Shown here: one piece after another, positions 17,979 to 30,067 of the stretch
Numbering within the stretch: the stretch's first letter is position 1
Layout of the letters: each line of letters opens with the position of its first letter
Virus record (IMG/VR): IMGVR_UViG_3300025598_000119
Coordinates: 1-30,067 of that record
Direction: 5' to 3' (one strand)
Origin: a virus
DNA: 30,067 bases
Translations under genes and position numbers: made by a program
Notes under the pieces: model-generated
Databases searched by the model: none
What the model was told of the DNA's origin: nothing
Seen by the model: the letters and a program-made list of their open reading frames with translations, nothing else

Positions 17979-18250
17979 CAGATTTTAGGTGGCTTTCTAT
18001 GAGCCATTCCCATCATAACTGGATTATGAGTGTTCTTCTTTCTTTTTCTCAAATCGACACCAGGTTCACCACCTTTACCACCAGAACCAGCGATTGCACC
18101 ACCGCCAACCACATTAGTTGGACCGGCTGACATTGCGCCACCACCCATACCATCTTCTTTTACACAAGAGCCTTTTGAAAATGCTTTTGTTCCAGGAACT
18201 CTTTTATATCCGGTCCAGCACTTCTCTCTTAATTCTTTAAAAGTTTTCAT
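17978..18250 (-). CDS. Small Gly-rich phage protein with CWTGY motif
   Basis: A 90-residue protein starting MKTFKELREKCWTGYKRVPG; the start at 18250 overlaps the upstream stop by one base, while a GTG four codons earlier would intrude further. CWTGY and GSCVKED (residues about 11-33) recur in the next gene upstream (18250-18990). The middle is Gly/Ala/Ser-rich, the end basic (RKRKKNTH). The N terminus resembles a capsid targeting sequence but is one residue out of register. Unknown virion-associated role. Confidence 0.65.
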   Translation of the reverse strand: MKTFKELREKCWTGYKRVPGTKAFSKGSCVKEDGMGGGAMSAGPTNVVGGGAIAGSGGKGGEPGVDLRKRKKNTHNPVMMGMAHRKPPKI

Positions 18251-18990
18251 TAGCAATTCCACTTTCTTAAAGCCTTGTTGATGCGGGAATCTGGATCACG
18301 AGCAGTTTTAGTAGAAGTCAAACGTCTTTTCATACCACTCATACGAGCACAGAATGATTTACGGCGCTTAGCTGCTTTACTACCTTTTTTCAACTTCGAT
18401 GGCTTTGTTGTAACAGCCATTGATAATTTAGAACCAGGATGCTCTCTACGATAAGAAGCAATACCTTTACGATTTAAACCACCTTTTGGATCTTTACCTG
18501 CTTTACGTTGCCATGCGGCAGTTTCGTACAATTCTTCAAATTCTTCATCTGATAAGTTTTCCCAAACAAGTTCAGGATCCAATTCGTATTCTATTGCAGC
18601 TTCACCAATTAGTTCTTCAAATATACCAAACATTTCTTCAGTTTCTTCATCTAAATCATGAGTACCACAGGTATAGTCATATGCAGTTGAAACATAATCT
18701 TGTGCTAAAGTAATTTTAGATTTAACCCACTCAGGCAAATCATCATCATCAGTAAGTTCATCGTGCATCTTTTGTGCATTGTGAATAATGATGCGCAATT
18801 TGTCTTTAATCATTTCACCAACATCATCATCTTTGGCTTCTTGAATTTGAGTTTCTTCTGGTACACAATTAGGAACGGTACGACCATTCTTTTTCTTTGT
18901 GCCGACAGCAGTATAACCAGTCCAACATGCTTTCTTTAAATCGCCTGTTGGCTTTTTAACTTCTTCTAAAAAATGTTTGAATGTTTTCAT
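18250..18990 (-). CDS. Putative capsid-associated protein with CTS-like N terminus
   Basis: A 246-residue protein. The first ten residues, MKTFKHFLEE, match the T4 capsid targeting pattern MKTYQEFIAE with L-E-E at the T4 gp21-type cleavage site (L/I-x-E). Then comes KKACWTGYTAVGTKKKNG with VPNCVPEE, a motif shared with the next protein, an acidic middle (about residues 60-150) and a very basic C-terminal part (KLKKGSKAAKRRKSFCARMS, about 197-216) of a type that could bind DNA. The N-terminal residues are seen; packaging is inferred. Confidence 0.65.
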   Translation of the reverse strand: MKTFKHFLEEVKKPTGDLKKACWTGYTAVGTKKKNGRTVPNCVPEETQIQEAKDDDVGEMIKDKLRIIIHNAQKMHDELTDDDDLPEWVKSKITLAQDYVSTAYDYTCGTHDLDEETEEMFGIFEELIGEAAIEYELDPELVWENLSDEEFEELYETAAWQRKAGKDPKGGLNRKGIASYRREHPGSKLSMAVTTKPSKLKKGSKAAKRRKSFCARMSGMKRRLTSTKTARDPDSRINKALRKWNC

Positions 18991-20109: not shown

Positions 20110-21384
20110 TTATTTGTTTTCTACTTTTTTGTTGACCGTACCATCATCTTTTTTGTTGCCATTCAAATCTGGTCTTGATTTCATTTGTGGATCAATCTCC
20201 ACGGTATCACGCTTCTCACCAGTCATAGTAGTTCCACCAGACATTACTGCTCTGGCTTTTGGTTCACCATCAGGTAAAGCATTTGGATCTTCTTTACTTA
20301 GTTTTGGATTTTTTCCATTAGGTTTACCAGGAGATGTTTGATTCTTATCATCCTTTTCGTGGTCATACATTTCTTCTTTGACTGGTTTACATACAGATTT
20401 TATTGTCTTTAATGTTTTTGACATACCATGTTTTCTTGGTAGAACATCATGAGTATCATCTGTATTATTGGCGCCATCGTATGGAGACTGTGTGGCTGCA
20501 TTAGGATCAGCAAAGTTATCTTCCGATACTGGTTTCATACCAACTTTACGTTGTAAATAACCTTTTAAACCTTTAACACGTTTTTTAGCAATTTCATCAG
20601 ATTTCTTATGTAGGTCGGCAAAACCTTTGGACATATGTTTGCCATGCTCGGCTGCATCACGGTTTGTCTGAGCATTTTTAAGACTAGCTGTAGATTTATC
20701 TTTATAAGAAGCCAATGTAGATTTAGAGATTTCATCAATCTGTTCAACTTCTTCTTTATTTAAAGACTTTTCTAAACGGTCAATAGCACCTTTCATGTCA
20801 TTCTTACCAGCAGCATGACGAGCAGCAGTTGCTTTTTTAAGTTCATCGTGTTTCTTTTGACGTTCTTGTGATGCTTTACGAAATTTCATCAAAGCTGTAA
20901 CTTTTTCTTCTGTACGAATTTCTTTTTGAGCATTTTTAGCTTTGTTCAAAAGAGTTTTCTTTGCTTCAGTAGGAGCTGGATGTAAACTTGAAGTATCTTC
21001 GTGCATATGGTGTGCTTGCCATACTAAAAAAGCTTTTGATTTTGAGTAAGAAATCTTTTGATCTTTTGTCATAACTTCAGGATTCAAACCACGAGATTTT
21101 AAATACTGATCCAATGAAGCGGATTCATTTACATATTCAGTACTTTCAAATTTATGATCATTCATCCATTTCTTATATTCAGCAGATTTGGCATGAGAAA
21201 TTTTAGTATCTCTAGAAACAAAATTAGGATTTATTCCTTTAGCTTTTAAATATTGTGACAATCCTCCAGCTTCAGCAATTTGATTTGTGGCTGAATATTG
21301 GCCTAACTGACCAGGATTAACATAATTTGTGCCTCTGGCCGGCTCAGGGTTCTTTTTAACTACATCCTTTAATTTCTTTGCCAT
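20110..21384 (-). CDS. Lys-rich, repeat-bearing putative structural protein
   Basis: A 424-residue hydrophilic protein. Two tandem repeats with the consensus L-x-Q-Y-L-K-x-[KR]-G-[IL]-N-P...D-x-K-I-S-x-[AS]-K-S...W lie at residues about 42-78 and 91-127. A coiled, Lys/Glu-rich middle follows, then EQIDEISKSTLASYKDKS (about residue 212), a motif common in phage head-region proteins from memory, and a Lys/Asp-rich disordered tail. I-D-E inside it fits the (L/I)-x-E prohead protease site. Probably a head-associated protein; no enzymatic motif. Confidence 0.6.
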   Translation of the reverse strand: MAKKLKDVVKKNPEPARGTNYVNPGQLGQYSATNQIAEAGGLSQYLKAKGINPNFVSRDTKISHAKSAEYKKWMNDHKFESTEYVNESASLDQYLKSRGLNPEVMTKDQKISYSKSKAFLVWQAHHMHEDTSSLHPAPTEAKKTLLNKAKNAQKEIRTEEKVTALMKFRKASQERQKKHDELKKATAARHAAGKNDMKGAIDRLEKSLNKEEVEQIDEISKSTLASYKDKSTASLKNAQTNRDAAEHGKHMSKGFADLHKKSDEIAKKRVKGLKGYLQRKVGMKPVSEDNFADPNAATQSPYDGANNTDDTHDVLPRKHGMSKTLKTIKSVCKPVKEEMYDHEKDDKNQTSPGKPNGKNPKLSKEDPNALPDGEPKARAVMSGGTTMTGEKRDTVEIDPQMKSRPDLNGNKKDDGTVNKKVENK

Positions 21385-21393
21385 ATTATTCTC

Positions 21394-22677
21394 TTAGTTA
21401 GAAATTTTGCCCATCATGGTTTCATTCTTCAACTTTTTGAAAGCGGAACGAGCCAAATCTTTAGCACGGGACATTGGTGTATGTTTAGCACCAGACTTGT
21501 CTGTTACAGTAGCAGGAGATTTCTTCCATGGTGTTTCTTTATGCCATGAACCCTCGTCAGCTTCTTCATTCTTTTTACCATAATAAGCACCTAAAGCCAT
21601 TTTCTTACGTTCAGCTTTAGATTTACCAGCAAACTTAGGATTTTTAGAATGTATGAAATCATGAATCCAATCACCAGCATCAGCATCTTTAGAAAGAACT
21701 TCGTTGATCATTTGGTCAAGTTCAACATCAGTTGCTGATTCCATTTTAAGATTTGGAAGATTAACATGGGGTTCTTTTGCTTTGATAGACTTACGAGCAG
21801 TAGTTTCTTCAGCATCTTTTACGGCAGGAGCTTTCATCTCACCATCAGTTTTCAACTGTAATTTATAAGATTTAAATTCATTTGCATTTCCACCTTTTAC
21901 ACGACCACGAATCATATCTGTGGTAACTTCATTTGGTTGTGCTGCTGGTGTAGTAACTTCTGCTTCAGATAATTCAACTTCTTCTTTCCATTCATTACGA
22001 GCTTTAGCAAGATTATCTTTATGGGAGATTGTATCTTTCTTAGGATCTTTAACATCAGTCATGGTCAAAGGTTTTTCACCTTTTGCTTTACGGAGAAAAG
22101 CAGGAACATCGGACTTACGAACTTCTTCACCAATGTTATTGTCGGTGAAAGTTTCTTGTGGTTGATTACCTTTGTTTTCTTTAATCTTTGCTTTTGCTTT
22201 TTCTTTCCACTTATGACCTAATGTCATTTCTTCTTTGTGATGCATACTTTTCTCATGACCTTTTACTTCTTTCTTAGCAATTTTCTTTGCTTCAGGTTCA
22301 GTAACACAATCACCTTCTTCTTTGAGGTCTTTTTCTTTAGGACCTTTGAGTTTGTCTAATTCATGTTTCGTTTGATCACGATGAGCTTTGGCAGCATTAC
22401 CATAACGATGGCCATATACCTTCATGCCTGTTGGAGTAGGCACCTTCTCAGAACTCTCTTCCATTTCAATTGCTTCTGCATGAGACTTTGCAGTAACAGG
22501 ATATTTTTTGCCTTGGAATTCAAAATGAGTTTGATTTGCTTTCTTAGCAGCATGAGCAGCTTTATGAAAACCAGTTTCATCTAATTCTGGTTCCAACAAC
22601 ATGCGTTTTTTTTCTTCAGAAATAACACTATTAACAGCATCAATCATTGATTGTGAAATTTTATTTTTTGTGAACAT
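21394..22677 (-). CDS. Large charged putative head-associated protein
   Basis: A 427-residue protein starting MFTKNKISQSMIDAVNSVIS, then ISEE, a possible prohead-protease site. It is Lys/Glu-rich and mostly disordered or coiled, with a conserved segment HSKNPKFAGKSKAERKKMAL plus GAYYGKK near residue 360, a motif seen in several T4-like marine phage structural proteins (remembered). CGGAG lies before the ATG. It lies between the nucleotidyltransferase-kinase gene and the repeat protein gene. Role unknown; a scaffold or internal head protein is plausible. Confidence 0.6.
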   Translation of the reverse strand: MFTKNKISQSMIDAVNSVISEEKKRMLLEPELDETGFHKAAHAAKKANQTHFEFQGKKYPVTAKSHAEAIEMEESSEKVPTPTGMKVYGHRYGNAAKAHRDQTKHELDKLKGPKEKDLKEEGDCVTEPEAKKIAKKEVKGHEKSMHHKEEMTLGHKWKEKAKAKIKENKGNQPQETFTDNNIGEEVRKSDVPAFLRKAKGEKPLTMTDVKDPKKDTISHKDNLAKARNEWKEEVELSEAEVTTPAAQPNEVTTDMIRGRVKGGNANEFKSYKLQLKTDGEMKAPAVKDAEETTARKSIKAKEPHVNLPNLKMESATDVELDQMINEVLSKDADAGDWIHDFIHSKNPKFAGKSKAERKKMALGAYYGKKNEEADEGSWHKETPWKKSPATVTDKSGAKHTPMSRAKDLARSAFKKLKNETMMGKISN

Positions 22678-22689
22678 TTTTAGTCTCCG

Positions 22690-24579
22690 TTATTTGTTCT
22701 TTTTTTTCTTTTTAACTATTTCGATACCAATATTTCTATTAGGATCTTTGTAACTATCCATATATTCTTTATTATCACTACCGCCTAACATTCCACCAAA
22801 ACCTGATTCGGGTTCGTTTTGGAATCCATTATATTCTTTAATTGTCTTTCTAAACTTCTTAAACTCTTTTTTTGGAGCAGTGTAAGCACTATCTCCTAAT
22901 GGATTTGGTGTGATACCCGCTGGCATTGCTGTGCTGGCAGGATTTGCATTACTATATTCTTCACCTTCACTATAAGTCTGATTACCTAAGCCCATGCCAC
23001 CAGTTAAACCTGAACCATTTGTTCTTGTGTCCCATGATGAACCTAGTCCATCTGGTCTACCTAGTGCCGATTCTTTTCCAGACTTATCAAAACCACGTTT
23101 CTTTAATTTGATTTTGTCTTTGTCTTGCTGGAAGTTGCTTTCTTTGGCTTTGTTGTAGACTTTCGTGATTGGCTGGCTTTCTTCGTAGGCTGCGTGCCAC
23201 GCACCGCCGGAGTGGCCTTTGTTGAAGTTGTCTTTTCTGGCGCCCGTGTTGCCTTTAACTTGGTCTTGTCCAGGGGGAACAATGGATCCTTGGTTGTCGT
23301 GGGTGATATCGTCTGGTCCTTTGGCTCTTGGACTGGAGTAGTTTTTTGCGACTTTAAGAAACCGATTATTCGTTTTAACATTATTTTCTTCCTCAATTTT
23401 AAATTTACGATTCAACCAATCTTCAGCCGTTTCGTTTACAGTATTTGAATCAAGAAAAACCTTAGTGTTTTCATATACTTCATGGATATCATATTCTTTA
23501 CTATGAATATCGCCTGTATTATCAAAAACAATAAAATTTTTAAATGATTCGGTGAAATATTTAGTATTTCTCTGTGATTTAGACCATTTGTCCTGTCTAA
23601 CAGATTCCATCATCATTCTAGACAACAAAGAATTACGTTCTTTACTTACTTCATCTGTGGTATTCACAAATATCATCATAGTCTCATATCCAAGACTTTC
23701 CAATTCTTCTTTGATATGAGAAATTTTATCTTTATCATCGGCTGGACCATTAATGATTAATGGACCACGTTGACGAATTGCTTCTCTACGGTAATCATTT
23801 GTTTTTTCAGATAACTTTTGTTTATCACCCAAGTAATCTTGTGCTTGTATGAAATTCAATTCCACAATGTGAGATTCGGCAATAGCTTCACGAATAACAA
23901 TATCTTTACCAGAACCTGGACCACCAGTCACAAAGATTGCATGGAAACGGCCATGATCCGTAGATTCATGTAATCCCATGCCTTTACGAACATCGTGCAT
24001 TAGTTCTTTTGCGTGTTCATCTTTTACATGATGTGGAACACCTTGACGGAAAGAATGGAAATCTTTATTCTTTGCATGTTCTCTCATCTTAGTACCAGAC
24101 ATGCCTTCTGCACCTTCGGCATCAGGATCTCTATGACCAGCAGAATGAACTTGAATTTTTTTAAATTTATAATAACCGTGTTTACCTTTTACACCATTAT
24201 ATTGATGTAATAGGTGGTGCATTTCTTTAACACGGTCAGAACCAGCGACTACATGAAGTTCGTCATGATCTTTGTCATGTAATTTTGAAGCATGATGTAA
24301 TATTGTTGGATGTTCTTTTGATGCGGCCTCAATGTGAGTGCCAGGAGAATATCTTTTGAGGTGTTTAATTTTCTGTTCGGCAGACAAAGGATTCTTTTTT
24401 GAGTCCTGTGTATGTGAAACAACCACGGTGTGCTTGGCACCAAGTTTCTCAGCAGTAGACTTTACTTTGTCGATAAGCTTTAAATGACCAGTTGTTGGAG
24501 GATTCATACGACCAAAAGCCATTACTACTGGCTTAGAGTCCTTTTCTTTTTCCTCAATTAACTCTCTAAAACTTTTCAT
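22690..24579 (-). CDS. Fused nucleotidyltransferase and P-loop kinase, CTS-like start
   Basis: A 629-residue protein. Residues 1-10 (MKSFRELIEE) match the capsid targeting pattern with I-E-E. Residues 17-175 are a cytidylyltransferase/NMNAT-type domain: VVMAFGRMNPPTTGHLKL holds the TxGH catalytic motif (Gly31, His32), and MSGTKMR (160-166) is the ISxTxxR-like motif. Residues 213-370 hold a kinase with Walker A GGPGSGKD (219-226). The tail from about 390 is disordered with Gly, Asn and Lys. The domain order recalls NadR (NMN adenylyltransferase plus riboside kinase), but the substrate is unknown. It overlaps the ligase-like gene by ATGA. Confidence 0.78.
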   Translation of the reverse strand: MKSFRELIEEKEKDSKPVVMAFGRMNPPTTGHLKLIDKVKSTAEKLGAKHTVVVSHTQDSKKNPLSAEQKIKHLKRYSPGTHIEAASKEHPTILHHASKLHDKDHDELHVVAGSDRVKEMHHLLHQYNGVKGKHGYYKFKKIQVHSAGHRDPDAEGAEGMSGTKMREHAKNKDFHSFRQGVPHHVKDEHAKELMHDVRKGMGLHESTDHGRFHAIFVTGGPGSGKDIVIREAIAESHIVELNFIQAQDYLGDKQKLSEKTNDYRREAIRQRGPLIINGPADDKDKISHIKEELESLGYETMMIFVNTTDEVSKERNSLLSRMMMESVRQDKWSKSQRNTKYFTESFKNFIVFDNTGDIHSKEYDIHEVYENTKVFLDSNTVNETAEDWLNRKFKIEEENNVKTNNRFLKVAKNYSSPRAKGPDDITHDNQGSIVPPGQDQVKGNTGARKDNFNKGHSGGAWHAAYEESQPITKVYNKAKESNFQQDKDKIKLKKRGFDKSGKESALGRPDGLGSSWDTRTNGSGLTGGMGLGNQTYSEGEEYSNANPASTAMPAGITPNPLGDSAYTAPKKEFKKFRKTIKEYNGFQNEPESGFGGMLGGSDNKEYMDSYKDPNRNIGIEIVKKKKKNK

Positions 24580-25757
24580 TTTTTAAAATCTTTCAATAAA
24601 TTGGCTTTTGCAAACTCTTTACGATTGACCAATTTAGTTGGTTCGCCTGCATGATGTACAACAAATCCTTCTGGATCAGTAGGTTTATCGCCTATATGAT
24701 GTTCTAATCCACCAGTATGTTGATTTAAATTATGTACCAATACATTTTTTGCTTGTTGTATGTGATGGTGCATTTTTAACAAATTTTCATAATCTTTTTT
24801 GTGAGCATCAATGTGCTTACTGTGAGAGTTTAATTCTGCTTGCTTACGACCTTGCGCAGCAGGTGTTTTTAATTTTTTAATACTATCGTTGTATCTAGAA
24901 CCAATAAACTTCTTTAATCCTTCAGCTGAAGGTTTCTCATCTGTTCTGACAGTATGATTTATATATGTAGCCATGTGGCCGGCTTCACCACTATGTGGTT
25001 CTGTATTACTGTACATAGTCTTTTTATGTTCATCATGTATTTTCTGTGCGGCCGTCATGTGTTTATGAAACTCATCTTGATCATGTTCAGAATAATGAAT
25101 ATTACGAGTGTCGTGCTCAGGATGTTTAGTCCAGACATCTCTATGTGGTGTAAAATTGTGTAGGTCTGGATGTGGATCGGCAGACATTGAGGCGGCAGTC
25201 TTACCATGGTATTGTGTATGAACTACAACACCAATTTTAGAATCTTTGATTTTTTGTGCTTCGTCACCATGACCAGTATAAGTGATGGTGTTTGGTGTAA
25301 ACGATACTTTACCATTTTTATGGTGTTTTAAATCGTCATGAGTATACATCAAATCACCTTGATATACACCAGTTTTAGGTGCAATTTTTTTAAGATGATT
25401 CAAAGACGCATGAAGTTTATCCATAAGACCAGGTGCGTGACCATGATTCTTCTTGATATCTTCGTGTGTATAATTAATTTTTGGATTTTTATTGAAAGCG
25501 GACTTGGAAGCTACAAAGAATTTGCCTGTCTCTGGATGATGACCAAAAACAATAGAAGGTGAACCATCATATTTCATAGTAAGATGAGTACTTTTACTAC
25601 CAGACTTCATATGTTCATGTGCTTGTGTTAGAGCCGCCTTAGCATGTTCAAAACCTTTCGAACCATGGAATAAAGGTCTATCTTCAGCATGATGAATATG
25701 CTTGAGTTTGCTTCCTTCTTCGGTTTCTTCTTTAAGAAAGGTTAAAAACGGCTTCAT
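24576..25757 (-). CDS. Ligase-like covalent nucleotidyltransferase, CTS-like start
   Basis: A 393-residue protein that I would place in the phage family DUF6267 (from memory). Motifs of ATP-dependent DNA/RNA ligases are present in order: I, KYDGSPSIVFG (Lys62 as the predicted nucleotidyl-lysine); III-like, VYQGDLMY (about 131-138); IV, EGFVVH (Glu363); V, KLVNRKEF (Lys375). Residues 1-10 (MKPFLTFLKE) match the capsid targeting pattern with L-K-E. It is very His/Lys-rich. Start at 25757: AGAAGGAAA precedes this ATG and a late promoter is upstream. Its role in DNA or RNA sealing is inferred. Confidence 0.65.
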   Translation of the reverse strand: MKPFLTFLKEETEEGSKLKHIHHAEDRPLFHGSKGFEHAKAALTQAHEHMKSGSKSTHLTMKYDGSPSIVFGHHPETGKFFVASKSAFNKNPKINYTHEDIKKNHGHAPGLMDKLHASLNHLKKIAPKTGVYQGDLMYTHDDLKHHKNGKVSFTPNTITYTGHGDEAQKIKDSKIGVVVHTQYHGKTAASMSADPHPDLHNFTPHRDVWTKHPEHDTRNIHYSEHDQDEFHKHMTAAQKIHDEHKKTMYSNTEPHSGEAGHMATYINHTVRTDEKPSAEGLKKFIGSRYNDSIKKLKTPAAQGRKQAELNSHSKHIDAHKKDYENLLKMHHHIQQAKNVLVHNLNQHTGGLEHHIGDKPTDPEGFVVHHAGEPTKLVNRKEFAKANLLKDFKK

Positions 25758-25802: not shown

Positions 25803-25810
25803 TATTTATA
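25803..25810 (-). promoter_or_regulatory. T4-type late promoter (TATAAATA)
   Basis: A perfect TATAAATA on the minus strand, 46-53 bases above the ATG at 25757 and downstream of the glycan cassette. The 124-base gap 25758-25881 also has a short GCAAC/GTTGC hairpin at 25776-25793 within the leader. It would drive the late block 25757 and onward. Confidence 0.72.
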
Positions 25811-25881: not shown

Positions 25882-26586
25882 TTAAAACTGAGTTCCCTCA
25901 AAATCCAACCAATAGTTAGACATTCTACCCTTGCCTTGTAGAAGATAGAATGGTAAAGTATGAATTAGACCTCGACTGGAATTATAGTATAACATATCTT
26001 TAGGTCCTCTGTCAAGTGAAAAGGCAAAATGTGTTGTTCCTGTGTCACCACCAACAAATATTTCGGCATCCATAATGTGGTAAACATTGGTCATGAAATC
26101 GGTACTATTAACCCATTCTTCTCCAAAATAAGTAGGTTCTTTGGTACATATCACTTTAACATAATCCTTATATTCTTCATCATTGTATTTTTCAATCAAA
26201 TGTTGAAGTAACTGTTTTGGCCAATTACGATAGGTGTTATATGGTGCGTCAAACAAAGGAAATATAACAATTTTCTTTTGCATTGGTTTGTCATTAGGCA
26301 CTTTAACTAAATCGCCACAAATATCTCTAAAATCCCATACATTAACTCTGCGCCAGGGTAAAGTTTCTTGACCTGGATGTGAGGAGAAATAATTTGTTTG
26401 ACATAAAAGAAATGAATGAAAATCTTGAACATATCTTTCTGTACTGACTGTTTCTGGTTTTAAATAGAACCGAATATATGGATCGCTGTTTGTTTTTCTA
26501 ATATGTTCTATTACATTACAAACACCAAGTAAATCTCCATTGCGTAATGGTCCACCAAAAGTACCAGGTTCAATATTGATAATCAT
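25882..26586 (-). CDS. Glycosyltransferase family 9-like protein
   Basis: A 234-residue protein. The C-terminal half has KKIVIFPLFDAPYNTYRNWP and the late segment EIFVGGDTGTTHFAFSLDRG, typical of the donor-binding domain of GT-B enzymes of the ADP-heptose LPS transferase type (V/I-G-G-D-T-G-x-T-H). It is short for GT9 (about 320-350 residues), so the N-terminal domain may be reduced or shared with its neighbour at 26583-27320, which looks like another half. It probably acts in the host cytoplasm on a surface glycan. ATGA overlap with the gene before. Confidence 0.65.
   Translation of the reverse strand: MIINIEPGTFGGPLRNGDLLGVCNVIEHIRKTNSDPYIRFYLKPETVSTERYVQDFHSFLLCQTNYFSSHPGQETLPWRRVNVWDFRDICGDLVKVPNDKPMQKKIVIFPLFDAPYNTYRNWPKQLLQHLIEKYNDEEYKDYVKVICTKEPTYFGEEWVNSTDFMTNVYHIMDAEIFVGGDTGTTHFAFSLDRGPKDMLYYNSSRGLIHTLPFYLLQGKGRMSNYWLDFEGTQF
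25986..26015 (-). promoter_or_regulatory. Possible sigma70 promoter inside the GT9-like gene
   Basis: TTGACA (26010-26015), an 18-base spacer and TATACT (25986-25991) on the minus strand. It lies in coding sequence, upstream of the late promoter and the ligase-like gene. The -35 is perfect, the spacer one base long; it may be fortuitous. Confidence 0.35.
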
Positions 26587-27320
26587 AGTTGTAAATCTTT
26601 AGCATGAACAAGTTTAGCTTGACGATTTAAATAGAAATGTTTTTCAAATACTTTATTAATATCTTTGCCATCGTCCCACGATACATTATCACCTACTCTA
26701 AATTCTGGCTTCCAATCTTCTGCTTTCCATACACAATATAAAGGAACATTACAAAGATCAGCAAGCATGCCAACACCTGTAAAGTTTGTAATAAATGGTT
26801 TCTTTAGATTTTTAATGATGTAAGCATTTTCTAACATCGTATTATTGAAATCAATAAATTCACAATCTTTTAGATGTGATAATATATGAGTTTCTCTACG
26901 AGTATCAATTTCACCTACTGCCCATCTATCACCAACATAGTAAGCATCTTTAACTTCAATATCATATTCTGGTGTCTTAACAATAAAATTATCATCAACT
27001 TCAAACATCAAATCATATTTGTCTCTTAACCAATTTTCATAACGACAAGTTTCAATTGGTCGATTTGGATCACCTTTAGTTTCACGACTTGGCCATGAAC
27101 TTAATTGAACCATATCACCATACGGAATAATATCATCATCAAATTCAACATCAGTAAATAAATCTTGATACATTAAAAATTCTTTAATGCCTTTAAACTT
27201 CTTCATTGAACCTTTAATGATAAGAGAATATTTACCATAAGACTTGCTGACGCCAGACAGTACCGGCATAGAATTTAAAAAATCACCAAGATTGGCTGTA
27301 CCTGTTACATAAATCTTCAT
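26583..27320 (-). CDS. Glycosyltransferase-like protein (GT-B, partial similarity)
   Basis: A 245-residue protein starting MKIYVTGTANLGDFLNSMPV, the kind of N terminus (x-x-G-x-L-G-D) seen in ADP-heptose-type GT-B enzymes. The later segment FITNFTGVGMLADLCNVPLYCVW resembles the donor-site region in which thymidine or sugar nucleotides bind. AAGGAG lies before the ATG. With its neighbour it may form a split or duplicated transferase. Function in glycan assembly is inferred. Confidence 0.6.
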   Translation of the reverse strand: MKIYVTGTANLGDFLNSMPVLSGVSKSYGKYSLIIKGSMKKFKGIKEFLMYQDLFTDVEFDDDIIPYGDMVQLSSWPSRETKGDPNRPIETCRYENWLRDKYDLMFEVDDNFIVKTPEYDIEVKDAYYVGDRWAVGEIDTRRETHILSHLKDCEFIDFNNTMLENAYIIKNLKKPFITNFTGVGMLADLCNVPLYCVWKAEDWKPEFRVGDNVSWDDGKDINKVFEKHFYLNRQAKLVHAKDLQL

Positions 27321-28111
27321 TCACTAAACTCCTTAAAAGCCACAAACCAGTCATTAGATGAGACTGGATGTAATTCAAATAATTCAGGTTTCAATAGATA
27401 CGACATTAACAGTAATGTTTGGTCATCATCAACCAATTGATTTTTAATCAACTCGTCCATACTATGTGCTACTAATGCTTGTAATGTTGGCCACATTTTT
27501 TTATCTGCAACAATACAAGGTCCAGTAATATGTACATCATTATTGGCAATAACATCTTGTATGATTGTTCCTTCTTTCCAATCTTTAATGTTAAAGAAAT
27601 GAATTTTTTCTTTATCAAAAGGATAACTCCAAGTTGTTACATCATTTAGTGTTACTTGATCACGGCAATAACCAAAGTCCAACCAAGCAACTAAGTCATT
27701 ATCTATTACACCTCTACGAATTGCTTCAACAACAAAACTAGCCTTCATTAAATTTACTACAACATAATCAGCATTCCAATATTCTGGATTGCGTACTTGC
27801 ATGGGATTTATTTTTGCTTGATACTCAGGATTCTGTTGAATCTCGGTAACAATTTCTCGAATCTTTTTAAATGAATTTTTGAAATCCATTGTGATAATAC
27901 TGGTTGGCCTATCTTCTCTTAGTGCTTTAATTTTATCAACCATATCTGCTGATGTAAACACAATGATTTCATTTTCTAGTTTGGCCATATGACCAAATCT
28001 TTCAAGATAGGTTTCAGTTGTGCGTTGTAAGTAGTGTGGGAGATTTTTATCTGGTGTCCATTCGCCACGACCAATATCAAAGAAGGCAGTTACAATACTA
28101 ATTTCATTCAT
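27317..28111 (-). CDS. HtrL/YibB-type glycosyltransferase-like protein
   Basis: A 264-residue protein, start MNEISIVTAFFDIGRGEW at 28111 with ATGA overlap; a TTG two codons upstream is less likely. The motifs SIVTAFFDIGR, an EIIVFTS strand, and WLDFGYCRD (an acidic D-x-G-Y-C motif) match, from memory, the HtrL/YibB (WlaTC) family of putative glycosyltransferases associated with LPS or capsule loci. It sits in a run of glycan genes, which supports the call. Substrate unknown. Confidence 0.72.
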   Translation of the reverse strand: MNEISIVTAFFDIGRGEWTPDKNLPHYLQRTTETYLERFGHMAKLENEIIVFTSADMVDKIKALREDRPTSIITMDFKNSFKKIREIVTEIQQNPEYQAKINPMQVRNPEYWNADYVVVNLMKASFVVEAIRRGVIDNDLVAWLDFGYCRDQVTLNDVTTWSYPFDKEKIHFFNIKDWKEGTIIQDVIANNDVHITGPCIVADKKMWPTLQALVAHSMDELIKNQLVDDDQTLLLMSYLLKPELFELHPVSSNDWFVAFKEFSE

Positions 28112-28836
28112 ACCCAATAATACCTTTTATAATTATTAATAATTTCAATATGTGCTGGTTGATTCTGTACAAATCCATCATAATCGTAACCATCATTTCT
28201 ATGATGATGCGTATCAGTCAGATAAGGATTAACTGAATAATCTTTTCCACATAAAAAATAAAATACAACCATATAACAGTCCATGAAACCTAATGGTTCA
28301 TATTGTTTTTGAAAGTTATCATGATTTTGTTTGAACCATTCAATCACTTTATCATAGTTATTCAGAAATGTCGATACTCTGAATATTGAACCTCCACCAC
28401 ATCCATATTGATTGGTGATAGGTCTACGACCAGAAAACTCAGCAATACTATCTATAATGTTTTCAGGAATGATGTTGCCAATTGTAATATTGTGGCCTGC
28501 CATTTCCCAAGAATCATTTATTGTAATTTCCTTTTTAATCCAAACATCGTCTTCCATCATCATTATATGTGAAGTCTCACACTTCTGGCAAGCGAGTTTA
28601 AATCGCTCAAACCATGTTAACAGTTTTTCTAAGTTGTAACTAGGATAGCCAACTTTATTGGAAAATGGAAAATAATCACAATTATTATTAATAGAAATAT
28701 CAGACAAATCATCCGCTGCGTCTGAACCTAAAAAATAATAAGCATCAGGATAATGTTTACGGACTTGTTCTACCATTTTTTCGGTAGATAGTTTTTTACC
28801 TGCTGATGCCAAATGGCAAAAAGAAATATTAGTCAC
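28108..28836 (-). CDS. Putative glycosyltransferase (GT-A-like, GTG start)
   Basis: A 242-residue protein beginning at GTG 28836, overlapping the methyltransferase by 8 bases. ISFCHLASAGKK leads; IMMMEDDVWI (about residues 91-100) resembles the D-x-D-type metal-binding acidic motif of GT-A transferases; and a Cys-Gly-Gly-Gly turn follows (YGCGGGSIFRV). Typical for small sugar transferases that add residues to surface glycans. Acceptor unknown. Confidence 0.55.
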   Translation of the reverse strand: MTNISFCHLASAGKKLSTEKMVEQVRKHYPDAYYFLGSDAADDLSDISINNNCDYFPFSNKVGYPSYNLEKLLTWFERFKLACQKCETSHIMMMEDDVWIKKEITINDSWEMAGHNITIGNIIPENIIDSIAEFSGRRPITNQYGCGGGSIFRVSTFLNNYDKVIEWFKQNHDNFQKQYEPLGFMDCYMVVFYFLCGKDYSVNPYLTDTHHHRNDGYDYDGFVQNQPAHIEIINNYKRYYWV

Positions 28837-29401
28837 CGTTTTTTATCCAAAAAATAATACTGTCACTAGCACCGGACGGCTCTCTGATGTCCGCAATTCC
28901 ACAGGCCATTCCTTCTGGTACCAAAGTTTTATATTCTTCTGCCCATTCCATTTGCAAAATATCTTCAATAACTAACATTCCGCCTTTGTTTATTTTTGGA
29001 ATATAAAGTTCTAAACACTTGAGATGACTTTCTTTGGTGTGTGGACCATCATCAATGATAAGATCAAAGTTTGGTAACATATCAGCAAATTCTTTTTGAT
29101 ATCCGTCAGCATAGATTACTTTAACTCTTGGATAAGGTTCACATTTCTGTTTTGCGCCATGGTCAACAGGATCGACACCATAGATTTCAGCATTAGGAAA
29201 GTAATGATGCCACACCGCTAAACTCCCACCACGATGTATTCCAATTTCTAGTAATCGTAAGTTTTTTTCACGATAAGGTGCAAATGTCTGATCATAAAAG
29301 TTACTACAATATTTGTGGTGAAATTCTTTATCAGTTCCAAATTCATAATGAGTATCATTACGCAGGTTGTTCTCAACCATAATATCAACGAGAGTTTTCA
29401 T
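28829..29401 (-). CDS. SAM-dependent methyltransferase (glycan or antibiotic type)
   Basis: A 190-residue methyltransferase. The Rossmann glycine motif is RLLEIGIHRGGSL (residues about 49-61, E-x-G-x-x-x-G), followed by an acidic second strand with IYGVDPVD, then DLIIDDGPHTKESHLKCLEL and GGMLVIEDI. This resembles the CmcI/macrocin O-methyltransferase type that methylates sugars or small molecules. The ATG overlaps the stop of the epimerase by one base. Likely modifies a sugar in the cassette. Confidence 0.78.
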   Translation of the reverse strand: MKTLVDIMVENNLRNDTHYEFGTDKEFHHKYCSNFYDQTFAPYREKNLRLLEIGIHRGGSLAVWHHYFPNAEIYGVDPVDHGAKQKCEPYPRVKVIYADGYQKEFADMLPNFDLIIDDGPHTKESHLKCLELYIPKINKGGMLVIEDILQMEWAEEYKTLVPEGMACGIADIREPSGASDSIIFWIKNGD

Positions 29402-30067
29402 TACATTAACCTATCTTTCCATGTTCTAGGGGTTTTATCAGATACAATTTCTAATGGATATGTGTAATCAAAAGGTTTAGGTCCTTTCTTTTTAACATAA
29501 GCCACAGTTTCTTGTATTGCTTTTCTTAAATCAGTTTTAGTTTCATAATCTAATAACTTACGAGCTTTGTCTGCGGTGCAAGATGCGTGTTTAACTTCTC
29601 TTGGTCGGTCAGGCATATGAATTGGTGGCCAAATAACATCTTTTCTCATATCACATTCTTCAGCTACTAGTTTGGCCAGTTCAGCAACAGTAATTGTACC
29701 TTCATCAGGACCAATATTGATAATTTCACTTGTGATGTTAGGATCCAAAGCCATCTTCTCTAAACAATTAATACAATCACCAACATAAGAGAAACAACGA
29801 GTTTGTAGACCATCGCCATAAATGATTGATGGTTTATTTTGTAGATTACGATTAATCATGATACTCATTACATTACGGAATGGATCATCATATCTTTGAC
29901 GAGGACCAACAATATTATGTGGTACAGCAATGTTCCATTCCATGCCATGAGTTTCACACAAGGCTTTTAATACATCTTCACCGGCAACTTTAGCGATGCC
30001 ATATGGATCTACTGGTTTAGGATCCATACCTTCATGAAATGGAGCTTCTTGGTCGCCATATCGTGCC
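29401..30067 (-). CDS. NDP-sugar epimerase/dehydratase, 5' end outside the window
   Basis: The C-terminal 222 or so residues are seen; the frame is open to the right edge, so the start and the NAD-binding GxxGxxG lie beyond 30067. Upstream of the first Met (30027), in frame, is ARYGDQEAPFHEG, typical of an extended SDR. PYGIAKVAGE has the catalytic YxxxK, VPHNIVGPRQ is the substrate region, and QTRCFSYVGDCINCLEKMA matches the R-x-F-x-Y-V-x-D motif of UDP-glucose 4-epimerase and 4,6-dehydratase relatives. It heads the glycan cassette as the nucleotide-sugar maker. Confidence 0.82.
   Translation of the reverse strand, partial: ARYGDQEAPFHEGMDPKPVDPYGIAKVAGEDVLKALCETHGMEWNIAVPHNIVGPRQRYDDPFRNVMSIMINRNLQNKPSIIYGDGLQTRCFSYVGDCINCLEKMALDPNITSEIINIGPDEGTITVAELAKLVAEECDMRKDVIWPPIHMPDRPREVKHASCTADKARKLLDYETKTDLRKAIQETVAYVKKKGPKPFDYTYPLEIVSDKTPRTWKDRLM

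Follow-up and report, generated by a model that had tools for sequence, protein, structure and literature searches.

DUF6267 as a predicted ligase-superfamily protein linked to a nucleotidyltransferase–P-loop fusion: a candidate head-packaged end-repair unit in T4-like phages

The closest described counterparts of the gene pair considered here are systems in which a ligase is teamed with a P-loop partner. In phage T4, RNA ligase 1 (gp63), whose core carries its motifs in the order KxDG, EGYV and KxK, is functionally paired with PseT, a P-loop protein of the polynucleotide kinase (PNK) type, and in fungal Trl1 and bacterial Pnkp/Rnl/Hen1 a ligase and a PNK-like P-loop module likewise belong to one system. 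NadR, an NMNAT–ribosylnicotinamide kinase, has a nucleotidyltransferase followed by a P-loop kinase. In a different context, an N-terminal signal serves T4 internal proteins for encapsidation and injection (PMC3012670), and virions of cyanophage S-SM1 hold a “cytidyltransferase”, T4-GC190, reported in 2010 (PMC3037559). Here we compare with these systems a locus from a 30,067-base virus record (IMG/VR IMGVR_UViG_3300025598_000119, positions 1 to 30,067; this whole stretch is called the window, and motif and residue numbers refer to its proteins). Two genes on the minus strand encode, in order of transcription, a DUF6267 protein and a nucleotidyltransferase fused to a P-loop domain. We propose that they specify a late-made, probably head-packaged unit for nucleic-acid end repair, a combined statement to which we give an even chance. 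The predicted fold and the linkage of the two genes have good support, whereas what we say of activity, substrate, packaging of the DUF6267 partner, injection and the repair role is inferred. The features of the pair are as follows.

24576–25757, minus strand: gene for the DUF6267 protein (393 residues), the upstream member of the pair and a predicted divergent enzyme of the ligase/capping superfamily (PF19782, AlphaFold, Foldseek)
25563–25574, minus strand: motif I, KYDG, with Lys62 as the predicted nucleotidyl-lysine (K62, D64 and G65 invariant)
24660–24671, minus strand: motif IV, EGFV, followed by motif V, KLVNR, at residues 375–379 (conservation; both on consecutive strands)
24576–24579, minus strand: ATGA stop/start overlap joining the DUF6267 and nucleotidyltransferase genes, read from the sequence
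22690–24579, minus strand: gene for the nucleotidyltransferase–P-loop fusion protein (629 residues), the downstream member (PF01467 above cut-off; phrog_3041 cytidyltransferase, E 1e-65)
23965–24579, minus strand: TxGH (HIGH-superfamily) nucleotidyltransferase domain, residues 1–205 (CTP_transf_like in 46 of 48 members)
23395–23955, minus strand: P-loop kinase-like domain of the zeta toxin/AAA_33 (PNK) type, residues 209–395 (Zeta_toxin in 25 and AAA_33 in 20 of 26 members)
22690–23394, minus strand: Lys/Gly-rich tail, poorly conserved, isoelectric point 9.4 (alignment and composition)

The upstream protein matches PF19782 over positions 2–373 of the 376 in the model (E 1.3e-96; 324.6 bits against a cut-off of 27). 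Its motifs run K62-Y-D64-G65, QGD133–135, EGFV363–366 and K375-L-V-N-R379, an order that a preliminary description of the window had attributed to covalent nucleotidyltransferases. The order is not due to chance. In an alignment of 77 orthologues, spanning 30–77% identity to the window protein, K62, D64, G65, K85, D135, E363 and G364 never vary, and K375 and R379 hardly do; KxDG, EG[FY]V and K..[N/D]R persist as motifs down to about 28% identity; and a short form from cyanophages, in which part of the helical region is missing, retains every motif. Both hallmarks of a covalent nucleotidyltransferase are thus present, a motif I KxDG with an invariant Lys and, in the expected succession, motifs III, IV and V, each on a strand (residues 131–139, 364–369 and 372–376).

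The predicted structure has the corresponding topology. The AlphaFold (AF2) model of the window protein is confident (pLDDT 93.2, pTM 0.90), with low confidence at residues 1–14, and that of the short form is confident as well (pLDDT 93). K62 lies at the end of a strand; motif III, a IIIa-like strand and motifs IV and V come after it, all on strands that succeed one another as in ligases. About 120 residues, forming a helical block, are inserted between IIIa and IV, and motif V is followed by a single helix, with no OB domain. When the window model was searched against the PDB with Foldseek, the best match by both E-value and probability was the adenylation domain of NAD+-dependent DNA ligase (LigA), and Trl1, capping enzymes and RNA editing ligase 1 were also among the matches. 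For the short form, ligases or capping enzymes made up 13 of the 15 best matches, and the top five were DNA ligases. In a search of viral models, leaving aside members of the family, the first matches with a different, named function were an RNA ligase that carries a polynucleotide kinase domain and an Rnl2-like protein. Because the motifs, the topology and the ranking of ligases and capping enzymes at the top of all three structure searches (best E 0.024) agree, DUF6267 is very probably a member of the ligase/capping superfamily of covalent nucleotidyltransferases, and the ligase core that had been suggested around Lys62 holds up on these predictions.

Within that superfamily, DUF6267 does not belong to the families of Rnl1, Rnl2 or DNA ligase, all of which were ruled out because the window protein matches none of the Pfam models concerned (PF09511 and PF09414 for Rnl1/Rnl2, PF01068 for DNA ligase). 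A phmmer search with both proteins of the pair matched no solved structure. The protein also differs from T4 RNA ligase 1, to which it has no significant sequence match, in its helical insertion between IIIa and IV and in having no separate C-terminal domain. DUF6267 matches 470 phage records, mostly cyanophages; its matches in species genomes lie nearly all in metagenome-assembled contigs, which we read as probable phage, and a cellular origin was set aside. The family is listed as “unknown function” and has had no function assigned so far; a literature search for DUF6267, PF19782 and the PHROG numbers found no paper naming DUF6267, and the available part of the T4-GC190 report (PMC3037559) neither assigns it nor mentions ligase features. 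As a separate observation, DUF6267 is split in two open reading frames with a short overlap in four loci (L116:3399–4587, L127:3665–4853, L219:2302–3496 and L119:686–1854). The break always falls in the loop that leads from motif III to the IIIa-like strand, and sequencing error is possible; because there are two sequence types, the split may have arisen twice.

The downstream protein has the parts that had been claimed for it. Its nucleotidyltransferase domain carries PPTTGH (H32 invariant) and SGTKMR (R166 nearly invariant), the [HT]xGH and [ST]x3R-type motifs that define the HIGH superfamily in PF01467, and its P-loop domain carries the zeta/PNK-type Walker A sequence GGPGSGKD with near-invariant P-loop residues. 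In the window protein itself the zeta-toxin match is weak, as are the matches of the P-loop domain to adenylate kinases and Pnkp kinases. The TxGH nucleotidyltransferase distinguishes this partner, which has no phosphatase, from PseT and from Trl1 and Pnkp/Rnl/Hen1, where a phosphodiesterase/phosphatase takes its place. A stand-alone relative of the P-loop domain occurs at about 5911–6633 of L165–L168; DUF6267 and the nucleotidyltransferase were not found within those loci.

The domain order of the fusion, shared with NadR, raises the possibility of a cofactor pathway. Here, the nucleotidyltransferase and kinase would make a dinucleotide such as NAD+, restoring NAD+ after attack by a host NADase defence, and DUF6267 would act on a small molecule or consume NAD+. 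NAD+ synthesis genes are established in phages (PMC9503650), an orthologue is called NMNAT in cyanophage papers (PMC9602691), and the NadR and NMNAT profiles do match the fusion weakly. However, its score against the NadR model TIGR01526 is 16.7 bits, far below the cut-off of 341. Further, the nearest solved relatives of the nucleotidyltransferase domain by profile are the UPF0348 protein MJ0951 (E 4e-4), the closest PDB match, and phosphopantetheine adenylyltransferases (PPAT), which share its TxGH, whereas NMNAT has HxGH. Finally, the P-loop domain is zeta toxin/AAA_33-like rather than a ribosylnicotinamide kinase and lacks the expected catalytic Asp. On the family scores, the TxGH motif and the P-loop family, we reject NadR-type NAD salvage, which had been offered as an early analogy, as the primary reading, and we regard a cofactor pathway in general as quite improbable.

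The two genes of the proposed end-repair unit are closely associated. The ATGA overlap noted in the window was confirmed, and the corresponding spacing of −4 is by far the commonest, occurring in 76 of the 153 loci that hold both genes. Among 133 informative DUF6267 loci, the nucleotidyltransferase lies within 50 bp in 64, within 3 kb in 42, is fused to DUF6267 in 18 and is missing in 9. The pair is thus linked in 124 of the 133, and the prospect that the genes would be found separately in most relatives did not materialize. Over all fetched loci there are 20 complete fused reading frames; the 591-residue protein of S-PM2, annotated as cytidyltransferase-like, structurally matches the DUF6267 model. 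In HTVC008M the P-loop protein is a separate gene between DUF6267 and the nucleotidyltransferase. The modules of the pair recombine, being separate genes in some loci and fusions in others. T4-GC190 of S-SM1 is of the same nucleotidyltransferase family and locus, and differs from the window protein in that the latter has an added P-loop domain. Some loci hold extra copies: G001–G004 (the records of L040, L042, L056 and L055) each have two nucleotidyltransferase copies close to DUF6267, and where the fused form occurs, another copy of more divergent sequence is often present downstream.

Three further features bear on when the pair is made and where its products go.

25803–25810, minus strand: T4-type late promoter octamer TATAAATA, an exact match 46–53 nt upstream of the DUF6267 ATG
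25728–25757, minus strand: capsid-targeting-like N-terminus MKPFLTFLKE, residues 1–10 of the DUF6267 protein (N-terminal pattern)
24550–24579, minus strand: capsid-targeting-like N-terminus MKSFRELIEE, residues 1–10 of the fusion protein (N-terminal pattern)

The octamer, which had been called a perfect late promoter, occurs just twice in the window, and it is found near the start in 86 of 228 non-identical orthologue upstream regions, where about 0.02 would be expected per 211 bp. Both N-termini fit the (L/I)xE type of T4 gp22, gp24 and Alt, as had been suspected, and with one fixed strict pattern such a start was seen in 80% of DUF6267 and 68% of nucleotidyltransferase orthologues compared with 6.6% of other open reading frames. 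Cultured relatives whose DUF6267 has a targeting-like start include HTVC008M and Melnitz. By analogy, the pair resembles the T4 internal proteins and Alt, which are basic, late and head-packaged through a short (L/I)xE signal; the mature proteins have no known sequence relation to the pair. The late and targeting-like signals also set the pair apart from T4 RNA ligase 1 with PseT. A further window protein, encoded at 18250–18990, also has a targeting-like N-terminus (MKTFKHFLEE); towards its C-terminus it resembles several PHROGs to which no function is assigned.

Beyond S-SM1, virion proteomes include the nucleotidyltransferase in S-SZBM1 (gp140; PMC9146016) and S-CREM2 (ORF154; PMC10665884), and an NMNAT-named protein was found in virions of S-SCSM1 (PMC9602691); for both S-CREM2 and S-SCSM1, the authors themselves noted that carry-over after CsCl purification is possible. 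Because the nucleotidyltransferase orthologue was found in S-SM1, S-SZBM1 and S-CREM2 virions, head packaging of the pair is plausible, and for the downstream member these detections agree with the preliminary idea of packaging. Its novelty is reduced, since virion presence of the nucleotidyltransferase has been public since 2010. In S-SZBM1 the nucleotidyltransferase begins MGLMRFRQFIIEA, with the signal present, and DUF6267 begins MAKNTHLEHLED, with no signal; the S-CREM2 nucleotidyltransferase begins MKNFSSFLTEA. Targeting signal and virion detection agree in the few cases checked.

The same proteomes could be read to mean that the pair serves virion assembly, as a head-core component or maturation enzyme; nucleotidyl transfer would then have been lost or would have phage proteins as its targets. 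The nucleotidyltransferase is, after all, a virion protein, the genes adjacent to the pair in S-SZBM1 (S-SZBM1_139 and _136) encode virion proteins too, and T4 RNA ligase 1 doubles as a catalyst of tail-fibre attachment, according to a database record. But the whole motif set for nucleotidyl transfer is invariant across very divergent DUF6267 orthologues, which points to catalysis, and we consider an assembly role improbable.

An alternative closer to the end-repair reading is that T4-like cyanophages and their kin use DUF6267, in place of T4 gp30, as their DNA ligase for replication or repair, virion packaging in the window clade being secondary. Several observations fit. Cyanophage DUF6267 genes sit amid replication genes, near gp43, uvsX, gp41, gp61 and nrdA. 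Among 20 DUF6267-carrying genomes, 13 have no PF01068 DNA ligase, and the NAD+-dependent ligase was found in none of the 20; the Kyanoviridae tested have none of the Pfam DNA and RNA ligases sought. Clokie and colleagues (2010; PMC2984593) pointed to the lack of a known g30 homologue in cyanomyoviruses and allowed that a distant one might have escaped identification. The DNA-ligase matches of the short form (e.g. Thermococcus, 6wbo) and the cyanophage replication neighbourhood would favor a DNA substrate. Against this, DUF6267 lacks the OB domain after motif V and the N-terminal DNA-binding domain of ATP-dependent DNA ligases, a late promoter and targeting signal are ill-suited to a replication enzyme, and in T4 the host ligase can stand in (PMC2984593). 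Moreover, the relatives nearer the window, G001–G004, keep a canonical DNA ligase beside DUF6267, with no Rnl, which weakens the notion that DUF6267 simply replaces gp30. A replicative or repair DNA ligase seems unlikely. In a combination of the two readings, which we also find rather unlikely, DUF6267 would be the sole ligase encoded by T4-like cyanophages and by aquatic phages related to them, and the window clade would have turned it, with its partner, into a head-packaged, injected end-repair unit.

In the end-repair mechanism that we favor, Lys62 would take AMP (or another nucleoside monophosphate) and pass the nucleotide to a nucleic-acid 5' phosphate, and the ends would then be joined. 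DUF6267 and the downstream protein, with its TxGH nucleotidyltransferase and P-loop domain, would act together as one unit, in which the downstream protein may condition the ends or supply the nucleotide. In the window clade, the pair would be made late, sent to the prohead core and cut by the prohead protease; once packaged and injected, it would most likely mend RNA (or DNA) ends cut by the host or its defenses at the start of infection. In T4 this role is filled by the separate Rnl1/Pnkp set; T4-type RNA ligases are absent in near relatives of the window, and of the 20 DUF6267-carrying genomes 18 have no Rnl2 and 18 no Rnl1. The absence of an OB domain after motif V places DUF6267 closer to RNA ligases than to DNA ligases and, together with the lack of the usual RNA ligases in these relatives, would favor an RNA substrate.

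A number of observations weigh against this interpretation. First, motif III of DUF6267 has Asp (the invariant D135) where ligases have Glu. Second, hhalign gives no significant alignment with either T4 Rnl2 or T4 gp30 (with Rnl2, motif IV alone is aligned, E 0.26), the DUF6267 profile has chance matches only among PDB sequences, in the helical region, and every single structure match is weak (the best, at E 0.024, being that of the short form), with low TM-scores. Third, in the P-loop domain the window clade has FIQ where distant members have NSD or NTD. The general-base Asp that follows strand 2 would be expected in this N[ST]D segment, its position being set by alignment only; with FIQ in its place, a working kinase in the window clade is doubtful on the sequence. 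Fourth, known end-repair chemistry offers no obvious step for the nucleotidyltransferase. Fifth, neither S-SZBM1, where DUF6267 is gp141, nor S-CREM2 has DUF6267 among its listed virion proteins, and in S-CREM2 the genes are unlinked, about 65 kb apart. Finally, the eight T4-like genomes without DUF6267, all of which carry gp30, Rnl1 and Rnl2, were picked through Rnl2 and so had to contain it, and the difference in Rnl content goes with phage lineage.

If DUF6267 is a ligase, it becomes a candidate for the noted gap in cyanomyoviruses, in which no ligase has been found. The common “virion cytidyltransferase” could then be given a functional setting, and injected enzymes of nucleic-acid repair would become testable as a class.

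On the 3' side, the pair is followed by two large basic proteins and then by endolysin, primase and ribonucleotide reductase genes; in Kyanoviridae it is likewise set in primase–reductase surroundings, together with gp43, uvsX and gp41. Both proteins of the pair are basic in composition, and at 20110–25757 four consecutive gene products are strongly basic in a largely acidic neighborhood. Histidine makes up about 12% of DUF6267 and of the nucleotidyltransferase domain (within 22690–25757), compared with mostly 1–5% in other reading frames of the window and 3.6% in the cyanophage form. Upstream, at 25882–30027, a block encoding a nucleotide-sugar epimerase, a methyltransferase-like protein and a protein with a weak glycosyltransferase-type match probably represents surface polysaccharide genes.

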